A stretch of 64,000 bases of DNA from Saprospiraceae bacterium (GTDB lineage: Bacteria > Bacteroidota > Bacteroidia > Chitinophagales > Saprospiraceae): contig JAHDHQ010000016.1 of assembly GCA_020631235.1 (NCBI GenBank), positions 1 to 64,000 on the forward strand, read 5' to 3'. A program made the translations under genes and the position numbers. Below the pieces are notes generated by a model that saw only the letters and a list, made by a program, of their open reading frames with translations, had not been told where the DNA came from and did not search any database. This document shows positions 1 to 7,805 of the stretch, one piece after another. Numbering within the stretch: position 1 is the stretch's first letter; every line of letters starts with the position of its first letter.

Positions 1-1
1 T

Positions 2-292
2 GAAAGTGAAGCAATGGATATGGAGCACGAGTTGCGAGCTGAGGCTTGGGTAAGAATTACCGCTGAGAATGTTGACAGTATTCCAGGTAATGTTATAAGT
101 TTATGGGCAAGCACAATAGAAGGTCATTCAATCAGTCTCCCAAATTTTAATAAGAAATATAAGATCGATGGGAATCTTAATTACATTATAATGTATAGAG
201 AGCAATCCCCATCATTACCAGACCCTCAAACATATGAAATCAAAGTATTTGCAGACAAAGGAGATACGACTTATTTAGACATAAAATATTAA
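2..292 (+). CDS. Lipoprotein paralogue, 3' part only (5' end outside window)
   Basis: Open frame from window edge (ESEAMDMEHELRAEAWVRITAENVDSIPGN...DTTYLDIKY*), matching the C-termini of the ORFs at 960 and 1607. Confidence 0.8.
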   Translation, partial: ESEAMDMEHELRAEAWVRITAENVDSIPGNVISLWASTIEGHSISLPNFNKKYKIDGNLNYIIMYREQSPSLPDPQTYEIKVFADKGDTTYLDIKY

Positions 293-315
293 CCAAAAAC
301 GTACTCAAAGAAACC

Positions 316-909
316 ATGCTTATTGTGAAAAACGTAATAAAAATAACAATCCTCCTATTTACGATCAGCCTATTTTCATGTGGAAAAGAAAGATGCAGTG
401 GAGTATGTGTAGAAGGCATTGTGACTGACTACGGAAACGGCATGCCGATAGAAAATGTCTTTATATCCATCTATGAAAAAGGAGGACAGCTATTAGACAC
501 CGTTAGGACTGACGAAAATGGACTATATACAGCCTGTGTTGATGATATAGGTTCTCTTTCATTGTATAGAGCAGAACTAGAAAAAGAAGGTTATTGGGAA
601 CATCATGGATATGAATTTTTTGAAAGTGAAGCAATGGATATGGAGCACGAGTTGCGAGCTGAGGCTTGGGTAAGAGTTAAAGCAATGAATGTGGACACAA
701 TAGAAGGTAATCAGATATTACTTTCAGTCGCAAATGGTAACTCAATCACAATATTTGGAGGATTTGGAGATTTTGACGATTTATTTTTAATTACAGGAGA
801 TATTGAAAATGAAATCAGATACAAACCTAACATAATAGATGGTGAATTTATCTTCAGAAATATTTTCACCCCTTCACATGATACTACAATAGTCGAAATA
901 CTTTATTAA
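316..909 (+). CDS. Tandem-array lipoprotein A1 (constant core, divergent C-terminal module)
   Basis: Lipobox-like ISLFSCGK; core RCSGVCVEGIVTDYGNGMPIENVFISIYEKGGQLLDT resembles a carboxypeptidase regulatory-like beta-sandwich; GTG at 325 is an alternative start. Confidence 0.75.
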   Translation: MLIVKNVIKITILLFTISLFSCGKERCSGVCVEGIVTDYGNGMPIENVFISIYEKGGQLLDTVRTDENGLYTACVDDIGSLSLYRAELEKEGYWEHHGYEFFESEAMDMEHELRAEAWVRVKAMNVDTIEGNQILLSVANGNSITIFGGFGDFDDLFLITGDIENEIRYKPNIIDGEFIFRNIFTPSHDTTIVEILY

Positions 910-986
910 CCAAAAAAATATACCAAAAACAGATTTTTTTATGAGAAACTACACAACGTGTGGTGCATTACATAACAATTAGAATT

Positions 987-1574
987 ATGAAAAACATTTC
1001 AACATTATTTAGTCTACTTATATTACTGTGTCTCTTTTCCTGCGGAAAACAAAGATGCAATGGAGTATGTGTAGAAGGCATTGTGACTGACTACGGAAAC
1101 GGCATGCCGATAGAAAATGTCTTTATATCCATCTATGAAAAAGGAGGACAGCTATTAGACACCCTTAGGACTAACGAAAATGGCTTATATACAGCCTGTG
1201 TTGATAATATTGGTTCTTTATCATTATATAGAGCAGAAATAGAAAAAGAAGGTTATTGGGAACATCATGGAGCAGAATTTTTTGAAAGTGAAGCAATGGA
1301 TATGGAGCACGAGTTGCGAGCTGAGGCTTGGGTAAGAATTACCGCTGAGAATGTTGACAGTATTCCAGGTAATGTTATAAGTTTATGGGCAAGCACAATA
1401 GAAGGTCATTCAATCAGTCTCCCAAATTTTAATAAGAAATATAAGATCGATGGGAATCTTAATTACATTATAATGTATAGAGAGCAATCCCCATCATTAC
1501 CAGACCCTCAAACATATGAAATCAAAGTATTTGCGGACAAAGGAGATACAACTTATTTAGACATAAAATATTAA
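987..1574 (+). CDS. Tandem-array lipoprotein B1
   Basis: MKNISTLFSLLILLCLFSCGK lipoprotein signal; same core as neighbours. ORF track starts at 960, but ATG 987 gives a cleaner signal peptide. Confidence 0.75.
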   Translation: MKNISTLFSLLILLCLFSCGKQRCNGVCVEGIVTDYGNGMPIENVFISIYEKGGQLLDTLRTNENGLYTACVDNIGSLSLYRAEIEKEGYWEHHGAEFFESEAMDMEHELRAEAWVRITAENVDSIPGNVISLWASTIEGHSISLPNFNKKYKIDGNLNYIIMYREQSPSLPDPQTYEIKVFADKGDTTYLDIKY

Positions 1575-1606
1575 CCCAAAACCTACTCAAAGAAATCACG
1601 CTTGTT

Positions 1607-2194
1607 ATGAAAAACATAATAAAAATAACAATCCTACTATTTACGATCAGCCTCTTTTCCTGCGGAAAACAAAGATGCAGTGGAGTATGTGTAGAAGGCA
1701 TTGTGACTGACTACGGAAACGGCATGCCGATAGAAAATGTCTTTATATCCATCTATGAAAAAGGAGGACAGCTATTAGACACCGTTAGGACTGACGAAAA
1801 TGGACTATATACAGCCTGTGTTGATGATATAGGTTCTCTTTCATTGTATAGAGCAGAACTAGAAAAAGAAGGTTATTGGGAACATCATGGATATGAATTT
1901 TTTGAAAGTGAAGCAATGGATATGGAGCACGAGTTGCGAGCTGAGGCTTGGGTAAGAATTACCGCTGAGAATGTTGACAGTATTCCAGGTAATGTTATAA
2001 GTTTATGGGCAAGCACAATAGAAGGTCATTCAATCAGTCTCCCAAATTTTAATAAGAAATATAAGATCGATGGGAATCTTAATTACATTATAATGTATAG
2101 AGAGCAATCCCCATCATTACCAGACCCTCAAACATATGAAATCAAAGTATTTGCAGACAAAGGGGACACAACTTATTTAGACATAAAATATTAA
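1607..2194 (+). CDS. Tandem-array lipoprotein A2
   Basis: MKNIIKITILLFTISLFSCGK signal; same core; C-terminal module as in B1. Confidence 0.8.
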   Translation: MKNIIKITILLFTISLFSCGKQRCSGVCVEGIVTDYGNGMPIENVFISIYEKGGQLLDTVRTDENGLYTACVDDIGSLSLYRAELEKEGYWEHHGYEFFESEAMDMEHELRAEAWVRITAENVDSIPGNVISLWASTIEGHSISLPNFNKKYKIDGNLNYIIMYREQSPSLPDPQTYEIKVFADKGDTTYLDIKY

Positions 2195-2271
2195 CCAAAA
2201 ATATATACCAAAAACAGATTTAATTATGAGAAACAACACAACGTGTGGTGCATTACATAACAATTAGAATT

Positions 2272-2859
2272 ATGAAAAATATGTCAAAATTATTTAGCCT
2301 TCTTATAATACTTTGTCTCTTTTCTTGCGGAAAAGAAAGATGTAGTGGCGTATGTGTTGAAGGTGTTGTGACTGACTTCGGAAACGGCATGCCCATAGAA
2401 AATGTCTTTATATCCATCTATGAAAAAGGAGGACAGCTATTAGACACCGTTAGGACTGACGAAAATGGACTATATACAGCCTGTGTTGATGATATAGGTT
2501 CTCTTTCATTGTATAGAGCAGAACTAGAAAAAGAAGGTTATTGGGAACATCATGGATATGAATTTTTTGAAAGTGAAGCAATGGATATGGAGCACGAGTT
2601 GCGAGCAGAGGCTTGGGTTAGGATAACTGCTGAGAATGTTGACTCGATTGAAGGAGAAATAATCACATTAAGTGCAGCCACAATAGGTAACCACACAATT
2701 AGTCTACCAAATTATAATGAAAAATACAAAATTATTGGGAATATGGATTATTTAGTAAGATATCAAGTACTATCTACTATAATACCAGACCCTCCAATGT
2801 TTGAAATTAAAGTATTTGCGGACAAAGGAGATACAACTTACTTAGACATAAAATATTAA
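2272..2859 (+). CDS. Tandem-array lipoprotein B2
   Basis: MKNMSKLFSLLIILCLFSCGK signal; same core; diverged version of the B1/A2 C-terminal module. ORF track starts at 2245. Confidence 0.75.
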   Translation: MKNMSKLFSLLIILCLFSCGKERCSGVCVEGVVTDFGNGMPIENVFISIYEKGGQLLDTVRTDENGLYTACVDDIGSLSLYRAELEKEGYWEHHGYEFFESEAMDMEHELRAEAWVRITAENVDSIEGEIITLSAATIGNHTISLPNYNEKYKIIGNMDYLVRYQVLSTIIPDPPMFEIKVFADKGDTTYLDIKY

Positions 2860-2890
2860 TCGAAAATAATATCCAAAAACAGATTTAATT

Positions 2891-3055: not shown

Positions 3056-3730
3056 ATGAAAAACACTATATTTTATGCATCTATTACTATTTTTTTCTTG
3101 ACAATTACAAGCTGTGGATGGAGAAATGATTGTGTTGTAAATTATGACATACAAGTACCATTAGAATTAAATTCTTTTGATAGCATTGTCCATGTTGGAG
3201 ATACGATAAATATTAAAATGTCCACAGATAATACTGAACTATATGATGCTATTGGAGATCGAACAATACATATACCTAATTTTGACCCTTTATTGACGAT
3301 ACAATTTTTCAGATTGGATACTCTCCCATTACAAGAAGTATTTATGGAATCTGACATAATTATTGATGAAGCATTTTCTTATGAATTGGAATCAGTAGCT
3401 AATATTCCAAGAGTTCTCTTAATGAGAGGAATAAAAAGTGACGAATTAAGCTCTCAATTTGAATTGTCGATTGTCTCGAATATTAAGCCAGGAACTTACG
3501 CTATTCATTTTGTGCCTTTCTTGAGGTTTAATTCCGAAATTGTAGATTTTGAAGGCAAATGTGATGATAGAAGTAAAATAGAAGTTACTTTTTTACTGCC
3601 TGAAGAAAAGATTATTAACGAAGATATTCTTGATGAATTCAGTAAAATGGTCCAGTATGATACATTATGGGAAGGAAAATCTGGTGCTTATAATTTAAGC
3701 TCTTCTTATTATTTTAAGGTTATCGAATAG
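3056..3730 (+). CDS. Hypothetical lipoprotein
   Basis: Complete ORF with lipobox-like TITSCGW. Confidence 0.7.
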   Translation: MKNTIFYASITIFFLTITSCGWRNDCVVNYDIQVPLELNSFDSIVHVGDTINIKMSTDNTELYDAIGDRTIHIPNFDPLLTIQFFRLDTLPLQEVFMESDIIIDEAFSYELESVANIPRVLLMRGIKSDELSSQFELSIVSNIKPGTYAIHFVPFLRFNSEIVDFEGKCDDRSKIEVTFLLPEEKIINEDILDEFSKMVQYDTLWEGKSGAYNLSSSYYFKVIE

Positions 3731-3823
3731 GAATATATGTTAAGCTCCAAATTAGCGAGAATCAAAAAAGTTGATTAAATGATTATAATCTTAAATTGTC
3801 TAGAAATTTAGAACTTTTCATTT

Positions 3824-4459
3824 CTATAAAAATTCGCTCAGCTTGATTCTTAAAGCTACAAGAGGCGAATTCTCGATAAAGTACTTGTTCTTTGAGAAGT
3901 TTTCACCGTAAGTCTCATTCAATTCCTCCACAAAAGCCAATACTTTTCTGTTATTATAAAAACTGCTAGTTACCCCAAACTTTAAATAAGCTTTATTTCT
4001 ATTTTTTTTCAAATTGACTAAAACACCAGTGCTTAAGTTAGCGGCGATGAAATTTCTACTTTCAATATTTGCATTAAAATAATTAACGTTCTCAACATTA
4101 ACTCTTCGACTTTCATGATAGGTTCTACCAATGCTAATGCTTACAAATGGTTTATATCTTTTAATGTCATTTTTACTCTTTACGTATTCAGCACCTACAA
4201 CAATAGACTTTCCTTCAAAAACATTTAGGCCTAATGAGGTAAAGGCATCAATGTTTTCTGATAATTCATAATTGATTTTCACCCCTAAACCTCCATAATC
4301 TACACCACCACCTAGACCCATCGACATTTTATTTAAAACAGCAGGAACCTGTCCATACATGAGCGAACAGTTAAAAACTAAACAAATGAGGATTGGTAGA
4401 AAATAAATGCCAGAAAATCGGTAAACCTTAGAATGGTCCATTTTGTTATTTTTTGTCAA
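3824..4459 (-). CDS. Putative outer-membrane beta-barrel protein
   Basis: Signal-like N-terminus, alternating hydrophobic strands, glycine-rich MGLGGGVDYGGLGV start, terminal LRIKLSEFL strand. Confidence 0.5.
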   Translation of the reverse strand: MTKNNKMDHSKVYRFSGIYFLPILICLVFNCSLMYGQVPAVLNKMSMGLGGGVDYGGLGVKINYELSENIDAFTSLGLNVFEGKSIVVGAEYVKSKNDIKRYKPFVSISIGRTYHESRRVNVENVNYFNANIESRNFIAANLSTGVLVNLKKNRNKAYLKFGVTSSFYNNRKVLAFVEELNETYGENFSKNKYFIENSPLVALRIKLSEFL

Positions 4460-4585
4460 GATAGTTTTAATGTTCGATTAATCTAAAGCCCTTTTCAATG
4501 ATTTGGTCAATTGACCTAATAAACAACTCTAAATAAGCAATATGGTAAAGCTAATTAACCAAGTATAAACCCAATTACACTAAAG

Positions 4586-5690: not shown

Positions 5691-7805
5691 TTACTCCTCT
5701 TTGATCATTTTTTGGACACACACCTCGGTGTGATCTTCGTTTTCTACATGTAAAAAGAAAGCTCCAGCTGGTAAATCTTCTAAATCTATCACAGCTTCAC
5801 TACCTAAACCTTCTAGTGTACTATGCACATTACCTATAGCATCATAGATTGTGAGCGTGTACCTTTCCATTAAACCACGTACTACAAAATACTGATCAGC
5901 AGGATTAGGATATACTTCTACACAGTTATTATTGACCGAAATATTAGTGGTCTCGCTTATGGTTGCATCATTGGTAAAATAAGAAAGTAATCGGATGTAG
6001 GCAGCTTGATAATATATGGCAGGCTCCGTTATTTCCCAGGAACTTTCAGGAAAACCATCGTTAAACTGAGCATAAGCTTTCTGTGCAGGCTGACCTGCTG
6101 GTGGCGTCACATCTCCAGAATAATAAAAATTAGGACCTCCGGTTACAAAGCCAGGAGCAGGGCCATAATCATCTTCTTTAACATTATCCCATTCAGTACC
6201 ATTGTCAAACCAAAAATGATAAATTTCGTCTACACATCGGTCGCCGCCATAGGCATACATATTAGAGAGTAAGACTAATCCTAATGGATTAAGGCCATGC
6301 ATAAAGTGGACATGTTCTCGCGCTTTTTCTAGGAGATCTTCGTTTAATGCTGGATGCACATCGTGTTCATGAAACAACATGATAACATTAGCCAAATTGG
6401 ATTTTACTTGAGTAGATCCCCAAGAATACATATAATCAGGAACATTGGACCGATATAAATCCGCATCTGAAAACAAATAAAAATCTTCATAATTATTGTC
6501 TAAAGCATCGAAAGCAGAATCGGTGATTATACTTATTGCCTCACTATCGGCGCCAGGCAAAGTAGTATATCTTAATAATGCTTCGTTTAATGGCATTAAG
6601 TAAGGTCCCCAATATCCAGCCGAAATTTGCTCGCTCCCTTGGTAATATTGTATAAAGAAATCATCGTATTTCTGATCGCCTGTGAGCTCATATAAATAAA
6701 CAGAGGCTATTACAGCAGCATCGTATTGTTTATCATAATCCCAGTCTGCATCTCCTGCTTTTATTGTGCCATCATCACATTCATAGTCTAGATCGTCATT
6801 ATTAAATTTTGTTTCGAAATAATCCCAACATTGAACAGCCCTAGTTTCTAAATCCATAGCATAGTCTTGCTGATCAGTCTCATCCTCAAAAACAATAGCG
6901 GCTCTTGCCATCATGCTCGCTATAGCTATACTGGCCGTAGTACATTCAGGTCCATAATATCGGAGATCCGAATTAGCACTCGGTGGAGAAGATGCATTAT
7001 CATCGTAGGTGATGTTTCCCATTTTTATATGGGCTGTGCCATCAGTACTGCTCATTTTCATGAGCCAATCAAGTTCCCATTGCAATTCGTTTAAAATATC
7101 CGCTAATCCATCTCCTGATTCTGGAATGTTACTTTGATCATCAAAGGCGGAAGGGTTGTCCTCATAAGCGCCTATTAGATTGTGGATGACATCATGGGCA
7201 AAACTCACGTATTTGTTGTTATCACCTGCATCAAACCATCCACCGGATAAATCTTTTTCAAGGTCTGCATTATCCTGATCATACACGTATCTACATTCGC
7301 TGTCTTGCAAAGGATTCATAAAATTCATCCCATCGGCAAATCCAGTAGGTACATACTCAGTTTTCTTTTCATCATTACACCGGTTATAGTAAAACATTTT
7401 GGTGGCGAGGTCAAGCACTTGCTTATAGGGATTAGCATTTATTGTAAAAGGAGCTGAAGAAGCATCATTATCTACATCGTACACATAAAAGCTGCCTTCT
7501 TCTGATACACTAGAAAAATCAAACCACCAGCCTTTATCTCCTGATTGTCCGTGCGTTTCTCCATTATTCCACATGGTGGCTTCTGCCGAAAACACAACAG
7601 CATCTGTCAAGTAATTTCTTAATTCTATGCTGCTTCCAGGGGTATAGGATAAAGTGCTGTTGTATCCACTTTGAGGGTCAGAAAGCACCGCTACTTTATT
7701 AGATGTTGGCAGGTAACCGAATTGGTCAACATGGATGTGCTCGCTAATTTGAGCAAAAGAATGTAGGCTGATTAAAGAGAAAAATATGTATGAGAATAAA
7801 CGCAT
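5691..7805 (-). CDS. Glycoside hydrolase family 9 endoglucanase with N-terminal Ig-like domain and T9SS C-terminal domain
   Basis: IHVDQFGYLPTSNKVAVL (CelD N-terminal type), GGWFDAGDNNKYV, LADILNELQWELDWL, WEITEPAIYYQAAYIRLL (catalytic Glu region), C-terminal VYPNPADQYFVV. Confidence 0.9.
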   Translation of the reverse strand: MRLFSYIFFSLISLHSFAQISEHIHVDQFGYLPTSNKVAVLSDPQSGYNSTLSYTPGSSIELRNYLTDAVVFSAEATMWNNGETHGQSGDKGWWFDFSSVSEEGSFYVYDVDNDASSAPFTINANPYKQVLDLATKMFYYNRCNDEKKTEYVPTGFADGMNFMNPLQDSECRYVYDQDNADLEKDLSGGWFDAGDNNKYVSFAHDVIHNLIGAYEDNPSAFDDQSNIPESGDGLADILNELQWELDWLMKMSSTDGTAHIKMGNITYDDNASSPPSANSDLRYYGPECTTASIAIASMMARAAIVFEDETDQQDYAMDLETRAVQCWDYFETKFNNDDLDYECDDGTIKAGDADWDYDKQYDAAVIASVYLYELTGDQKYDDFFIQYYQGSEQISAGYWGPYLMPLNEALLRYTTLPGADSEAISIITDSAFDALDNNYEDFYLFSDADLYRSNVPDYMYSWGSTQVKSNLANVIMLFHEHDVHPALNEDLLEKAREHVHFMHGLNPLGLVLLSNMYAYGGDRCVDEIYHFWFDNGTEWDNVKEDDYGPAPGFVTGGPNFYYSGDVTPPAGQPAQKAYAQFNDGFPESSWEITEPAIYYQAAYIRLLSYFTNDATISETTNISVNNNCVEVYPNPADQYFVVRGLMERYTLTIYDAIGNVHSTLEGLGSEAVIDLEDLPAGAFFLHVENEDHTEVCVQKMIKEE

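Follow-up and report, generated by a model that had tools for sequence, protein, structure and literature searches.

Mosaic lipoprotein array with hydrolase 5′ relics in a Saprospiraceae genome, a candidate immunity array for type IX-sorted lipase-like hydrolases

What is known of the type IX secretion system (T9SS) concerns mainly digestive enzymes, gliding adhesins and virulence factors. Immunity-type arrays have so far been described mainly for other secretion systems. The immunity gene arrays of the Vibrio cholerae type VI secretion system (T6SS) were formed by sequential effector displacement (PMC5361080). In T6SS Tle/Tli pairs such as Tle1/Tli1a, a lipase-like enzyme adjoins outer-membrane lipoprotein inhibitors whose genes can be duplicated (PMC13133936). 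Polyimmunity loci, homogeneous or heterogeneous, are composed of tandem immunity-type genes, some of mixed families and some near XerC/D-type recombinases (PMC3482391), and TANFOR polymorphic toxins of Bacteroidota belong to toxin-immunity pairs linked to T9SS substrates (PMC7073777). Here we compare with these systems a tandem lipoprotein locus of a Saprospiraceae bacterium.

The window, the whole stretch of 64,000 nucleotides analysed, starts with the first base of contig C34, in a genome of 4.19 Mb assembled in 43 contigs. A preliminary description had proposed at least five consecutive lipoprotein paralogues at its start, and four complete copies (A1, B1, A2, B2; 194-195 aa) and a cut one were indeed found in tandem on the + strand within positions 1-2860. 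The features are as follows.

1..292, +, reading frame 2-292: 3′ part of a lipoprotein gene (codons ~100-195), cut by the contig edge
325..909, +: A1 lipoprotein, 194 aa, with an A2-like core and its own diverged tail, also found in a sister species
910..986, +: A1-B1 spacer with a hydrolase-start relic, ATGAGAAACTACACAACGTGTGG... from 942, 94% identical over 50 nt to the hydrolase 5′ end
987..1574, +: B1 lipoprotein, 195 aa
1607..2194, +: A2 lipoprotein, 195 aa, a mosaic of the A1/B2 core and the B1 tail
2195..2271, +: A2-B2 spacer with a hydrolase-start relic, 97.8% over 45 nt
2272..2859, +: B2 lipoprotein, 195 aa
2891..3046, +: relic of the T9SS hydrolase, codons 1-52 followed by a stop, 65% aa identity
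3056..3730, +: unrelated lipoprotein, 224 aa, marking together with 3824-4459 a segmental duplication whose other copy lies on contig C23
3824..4459, -: 211-aa protein without Pfam match, within the duplicated segment

The A1 start codon is GTG, with an in-frame ATG at 316. A lipobox (LFSC, then G) was recognised by pattern in every complete copy, as in bacterial lipoproteins. Further along the window, 5691-7805 (-) encodes a secreted protein of 704 aa which, by reading, looks like a glycoside hydrolase of family 9 that has a T9SS-like C-terminus.

The preliminary description had called for counting copies upstream, and a search of the own genome provided them: three more complete copies lie on C23 (C1, 118589-119176; C2, 119252-119839; D, 128688-129272) and the end of this contig (132236-132322) carries the first codons of another, cut copy. 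This copy probably continues at window 1-292, which places the contig break inside the array; C23 would thus run into C34, with the gap within the conserved lipoprotein core. The genome holds at least eight copies, and since the assembly breaks within this repeat, copy number and order of near-identical segments hold as assembled only. Window 3422-4474 is 96.8% identical over 1053 nt to a segment of C23, which shows that duplication affected larger pieces of the locus too.

We then compared the copies in nucleotide sliding windows, which delimited three exchangeable stretches: signal peptide, core and tail. The core had been described as nearly invariant and this was borne out: A1 and A2 are 100% identical over alignment positions ~90-330, and A1, A2 and B2 over ~150-300, where B1 reaches 88-95%. 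As also proposed, the tails of A2, B1 and the cut copy form a single type (95-100%) from which that of B2 diverges (60-92%). The A1 tail, said to look unrelated, turned out to be a diverged homologue (33-58% across most of its length). The tails of B2, A1, C1, C2 and D each differ, and the signal-peptide module alternates, being A-type in A1 and A2 and B-type in B1, B2, C1 and C2. In a Sawyer-type runs test (264 polymorphic sites, 8 sequences, 2000 permutations), the longest shared fragment spanned 164 polymorphic sites, whereas permuted data gave a mean of 32 (P=0.0005). Significant fragments were A1-A2, A1-B2 and A2-B2 in the core, B1-A2 in the tail and A1-sister species in the tail. Recombination or gene conversion between copies, suspected from the start, is thus supported by the runs test, the sliding windows and the sister-species copy. 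Positive selection on the tail was also considered. Between A1 and A2, core dS is 0 and tail dS is saturated; as tail dS is high alongside dN, positive selection is not demonstrated, and conversion of the core explains the core/tail contrast at least as well. The diversity of the tails is real, and the contrast could arise from core conversion alone.

A sister genome of the same genus (G002) carries two lipoprotein copies at a related place, the first frameshifted, and retains a 77-codon relic of the hydrolase. Copy number therefore differs between related genomes, the opposite of the fixed number that was to speak against a recombining array. From codon 20 on, the second sister copy shares 98.5% identity with A1, and 99.2% in the tail, where dS is 0. 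By comparison, identity falls to 81-82% in a nearby gene common to both genomes (64.5% at third positions) and to 75% over 9.7 kb of the window aligned with G002. A nearly identical A1 tail against a 75-82% background points to recent exchange between species rather than slow vertical decay.

The sole intact hydrolase gene at the array lies on C23, 33 nt after C1-C2. Its 1865-aa product comprises a signal peptide, an alpha/beta-hydrolase part with a GLSMGG nucleophile elbow, a VWA domain and a type IX sorting domain (Por_Secre_tail; PF18962, 36.4 bits for a cut-off of 27; TIGR04183, 30.4 bits for a cut-off of 23). With this type A sorting domain and a T9SS translocon protein SprA encoded in the same genome (1562 bits), the hydrolase is a predicted T9SS cargo. 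GxSMGG is invariant across 13 aligned homologues, and the lipase-family Pfam matches (Palm_thioest, PGAP1, DUF676) all remained under curated cut-offs. At another locus (L088:4357-7509), a homologue without the GxSxG serine, its elbow reading GMGTGG, adjoins four lipoprotein copies, one of them frameshifted; this is possibly an inactive enzyme with a retained array. Short imperfect repeats of ~100 bp, common to the sister genome, were seen downstream of the hydrolase (L007:17803-18110, L023:15676-16262).

The first codons of the hydrolase (MRNYT.CG...) recur as relics after A1, A2, B2, C1 and D; the cut copy and B1 are followed by no such relic. The presence of hydrolase starts after most copies implies that the units of the array were once lipoprotein-hydrolase units. 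Partner genes retained beside truncated effector remnants are what characterises orphan immunity arrays, and the locus would accordingly be classed with them on its gene content.

A profile search detected hydrolase homologues in 40 of the 298 genomes from the same family and in 19 of 396 across the phylum. Of the 58 hydrolase loci for which upstream DNA was sufficient, 26 have a lipoprotein of 120-280 aa directly upstream, compared with 2 of 139 other large ORFs (Fisher 3e-14, for loci that are not phylogenetically independent); eleven loci have at least two. About half of the homologues have no lipoprotein directly upstream under the automatic lipobox rule used for these calls, which undercounts where starts are misannotated. 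An enzyme and a small partner are thus adjacent across genomes, as in a conserved pair. Upstream of the hydrolase, 10/58 loci carry relics of its 5′ end, compared with 0/96 controls; relics of its middle segment occur in 0/58, so the stumps are specifically 5′. In the paralogous pairs L076/L077 and L126/L128, no clear co-variation of hydrolase and lipoprotein variability was found.

Apart from these pairs, other arrangements were observed. In another hydrolase group (L089, L090, L091, L092, L093, L133, L140, L228, L230) no lipoprotein lies upstream; that place is taken by a secreted protein which, by reading, has GIG repeats like those of phage tail fibres and a coiled stretch at its C-terminus. 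Genome G845 has four cassettes (L126, L128, L130, L118), two of them with nearly identical lipoproteins on separate contigs, and three lie near a similar gene of 350-370 aa that reads like a transposase-type nuclease; mobility of these cassettes is possible.

Among the 298 genomes of the bacterial family, the window lipoprotein family (profile A3) occurs in 26. Hydrolases have an array of it next to them in G067 (six copies, downstream), G877 (four copies, downstream) and G080, and a single copy in G172, G758 and G315 (two loci); in many genomes it is also orphan, as singles, pairs or triples, often in tandem pairs. Lipoproteins without adjacent hydrolase, often tandem, were likewise found in the sister species and at L187, L191-L193 and L232-L235. 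A second family builds arrays with conserved ends and a variable middle (L088, L137, L147, L086, L136). It has no detectable homology to the window family, the profile comparison matching the signal peptide only, and one array (L190) contains both kinds together with hydrolase-like stumps. Many partner lipoproteins elsewhere match NF052634 above cut-off, and a hydrolase adjoins 4 of the 20 top NF052634 loci; the others are orphan, several of them tandem.

The window lipoproteins scored 25-27 bits with CarboxypepD_reg (PF13620), below its gathering threshold of 32.3. A window copy had no match in NCBIfam, hence none to NF052634 / DUF6252, and none in PADLOC as an anti-phage defence component. 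They are a separate CarboxypepD_reg-like family, apart from NF052634. Sequence search against solved structures gave weak transthyretin-like matches to the first domain only. AlphaFold models of both lipoprotein families were of low confidence (pLDDT 55 and 44), and Foldseek with these models gave nothing below 1e-3, the hits being beta-sandwich proteins only; the fold is predicted to be mostly beta. Tenacibaculum matches (L045-L048) were set aside, as the CarboxypepD_reg domain alone was in common and the lipoprotein is longer and different.

About a dozen cassettes, that of C23 among them, have a divergent HTH-like gene beside them (homologous, about 280-370 aa; L007:9395-10501, L079, L084, L119, L122, L123, L124, L137, L142, L234, L236, L247). 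The HTH assignment was made by eye, the C23 member having no Pfam match; a search of the own genome gave a single further homologue, a distant one. The stretch upstream of the intact cassette, L007:2499-8257 (C23 ~110.5-116.3 kb), codes for a VapE-like/BT4734-like primase protein and for two tyrosine recombinases that carry Arm-DNA-binding domains. With recombinases and primase beyond the HTH-like gene, this region is a probable integrated mobile element, next to which the intact cassette would lie.

Taken together, we consider it reasonably probable that the lipoproteins are cognate or orphan immunity proteins (inhibitors) for T9SS lipase-like hydrolases, accrued by hydrolase loss or displacement and by gene conversion. 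Adjacency, many lipoproteins per enzyme, their retention without enzyme, unrelated families in one slot, stumps and interspecies exchange are what an effector-immunity array predicts. The ancestral unit would consist of one or more lipoprotein genes followed by the hydrolase gene, often with the divergent HTH-type gene alongside. New units would arrive or duplicate via homologous recombination through the lipoprotein core and the hydrolase start, and in each round the old hydrolase would be lost except for its first codons while the old lipoprotein stays, giving a row of orphan lipoproteins separated by stumps. Gene conversion would homogenise the core (signal peptide and CarboxypepD_reg-like first domain), and the second domain, the presumed hydrolase contact, would remain diverse. 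In such a scheme we infer that the hydrolase is toxic and used against bacteria, that the membrane-anchored lipoprotein inhibits it and that the tail is the specificity part. A broader proposal is evenly balanced in our judgement: a phylum-wide antagonism of Bacteroidota with T9SS lipase-like weapons, at least two unrelated families of neutralising lipoproteins, arrays with 5′ stumps and diversification of tail domains by conversion.

The main rival casts the lipoproteins as dedicated helpers of the hydrolase (chaperones, foldases, or factors for its export or activation) that were duplicated along with it. Lipase-specific foldases are dedicated helpers of lipases, and the operon-like position of the lipoprotein before the hydrolase would suit such a role. 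Moreover, in the strongest experimental result available for a relative, transposon insertion in Riean_0653, which gave its name to NF052634, lowered haemolysis of Riemerella, and this was restored in trans (PMC7881567), a phenotype that counts against the immunity view and that an activator would fit. However, an activator should be lost with its enzyme and a dedicated foldase predicts a single family, whereas the lipoproteins persist, often in tandem, without adjacent hydrolase, two families without detectable homology occupy one position, and there are many copies per hydrolase. We therefore hold this explanation to be unlikely, and slightly more so one in which lipoproteins and hydrolase make up one surface complex degrading nutrients or matrix (lipid/ester use), the array being a gene-dosage amplification under concerted evolution. 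CarboxypepD_reg-like and VWA domains are common among surface polymer-use proteins, and concerted evolution by itself gives a uniform core; such a complex predicts neither 5′ hydrolase stumps between copies and orphan arrays nor cross-species tails that are nearly identical against a 75% background.

Two further explanations concern the mosaicism itself. The preliminary description had offered surface-variation cassettes and polymorphic immunity families as analogies, of which the second gains from the hydrolase partner, the relics and the orphan arrays. Copies that are mosaic, alike at the ends and diverse in one part, could indeed be cassettes of surface-antigen variation, whose recombinant variants escape phage, predators or grazing. 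Yet start, signal peptide and stop are present in each complete copy, with neither a silent-cassette/expression-site pair nor a single expression site, so that an expression cassette is unsupported; together with the consistent hydrolase partner and its relics, this makes surface-antigen variation quite improbable. Finally, two contigs end within the array, and the mosaicism of the window could largely be an assembly artefact, given the breaks in near-identical repeats. But the independent C23 copies, the sister genome and unrelated genomes all show this pattern, and the body of A1 is nearly intact in the sister assembly; an artefact is the least probable of these alternatives, marginally below antigen variation.

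Were the immunity array confirmed, the T9SS would be an antibacterial weapon system with a T6SS-like logic in a large environmental phylum, and the hydrolase stumps would be a genomic fossil record of weapon turnover. It would also offer a testable function for the widespread NF052634 and DUF6252 lipoproteins. The hydrolase-lipoprotein pairing was not found described in the literature covered, which leaves out most subscription papers and preprints. Closest in family terms is NF052634 (Riean_0653 family / Pfam DUF6252), matched by partner lipoproteins at the same position, the window family standing apart. In contrast to the present locus, TANFOR immunity genes lie downstream, lipoproteins are not mentioned, and the toxins are nucleases and others with no lipase (PMC7073777); the hydrolase had no TANFOR match in Pfam/NCBIfam searches. 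Compared with polyimmunity loci, the lipoprotein families were not recognised among those listed and hydrolase stumps separate the copies; the tyrosine recombinases upstream on C23 parallel the XerC/D-type recombinases near such loci (PMC3482391). Unlike Tli proteins, the lipoproteins match no known immunity family and the export signal of the enzyme is of the T9SS; no T6SS gene, VgrG or adaptor was recognised among the neighbouring ORFs read. The Vibrio cholerae arrays likewise show orphan immunity-type rows beside one intact effector, mosaic and horizontally exchanged (PMC5361080). Here, the partner is a T9SS-sorted hydrolase, mostly preceded by the lipoproteins, the stumps are hydrolase 5′ ends, and homogenisation and duplication within the array are strong, whereas the Vibrio study argued against such processes (PMC5361080). 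The logic of the array matches that of T6SS immunity arrays and of the lipoprotein inhibitors of T6SS phospholipases.
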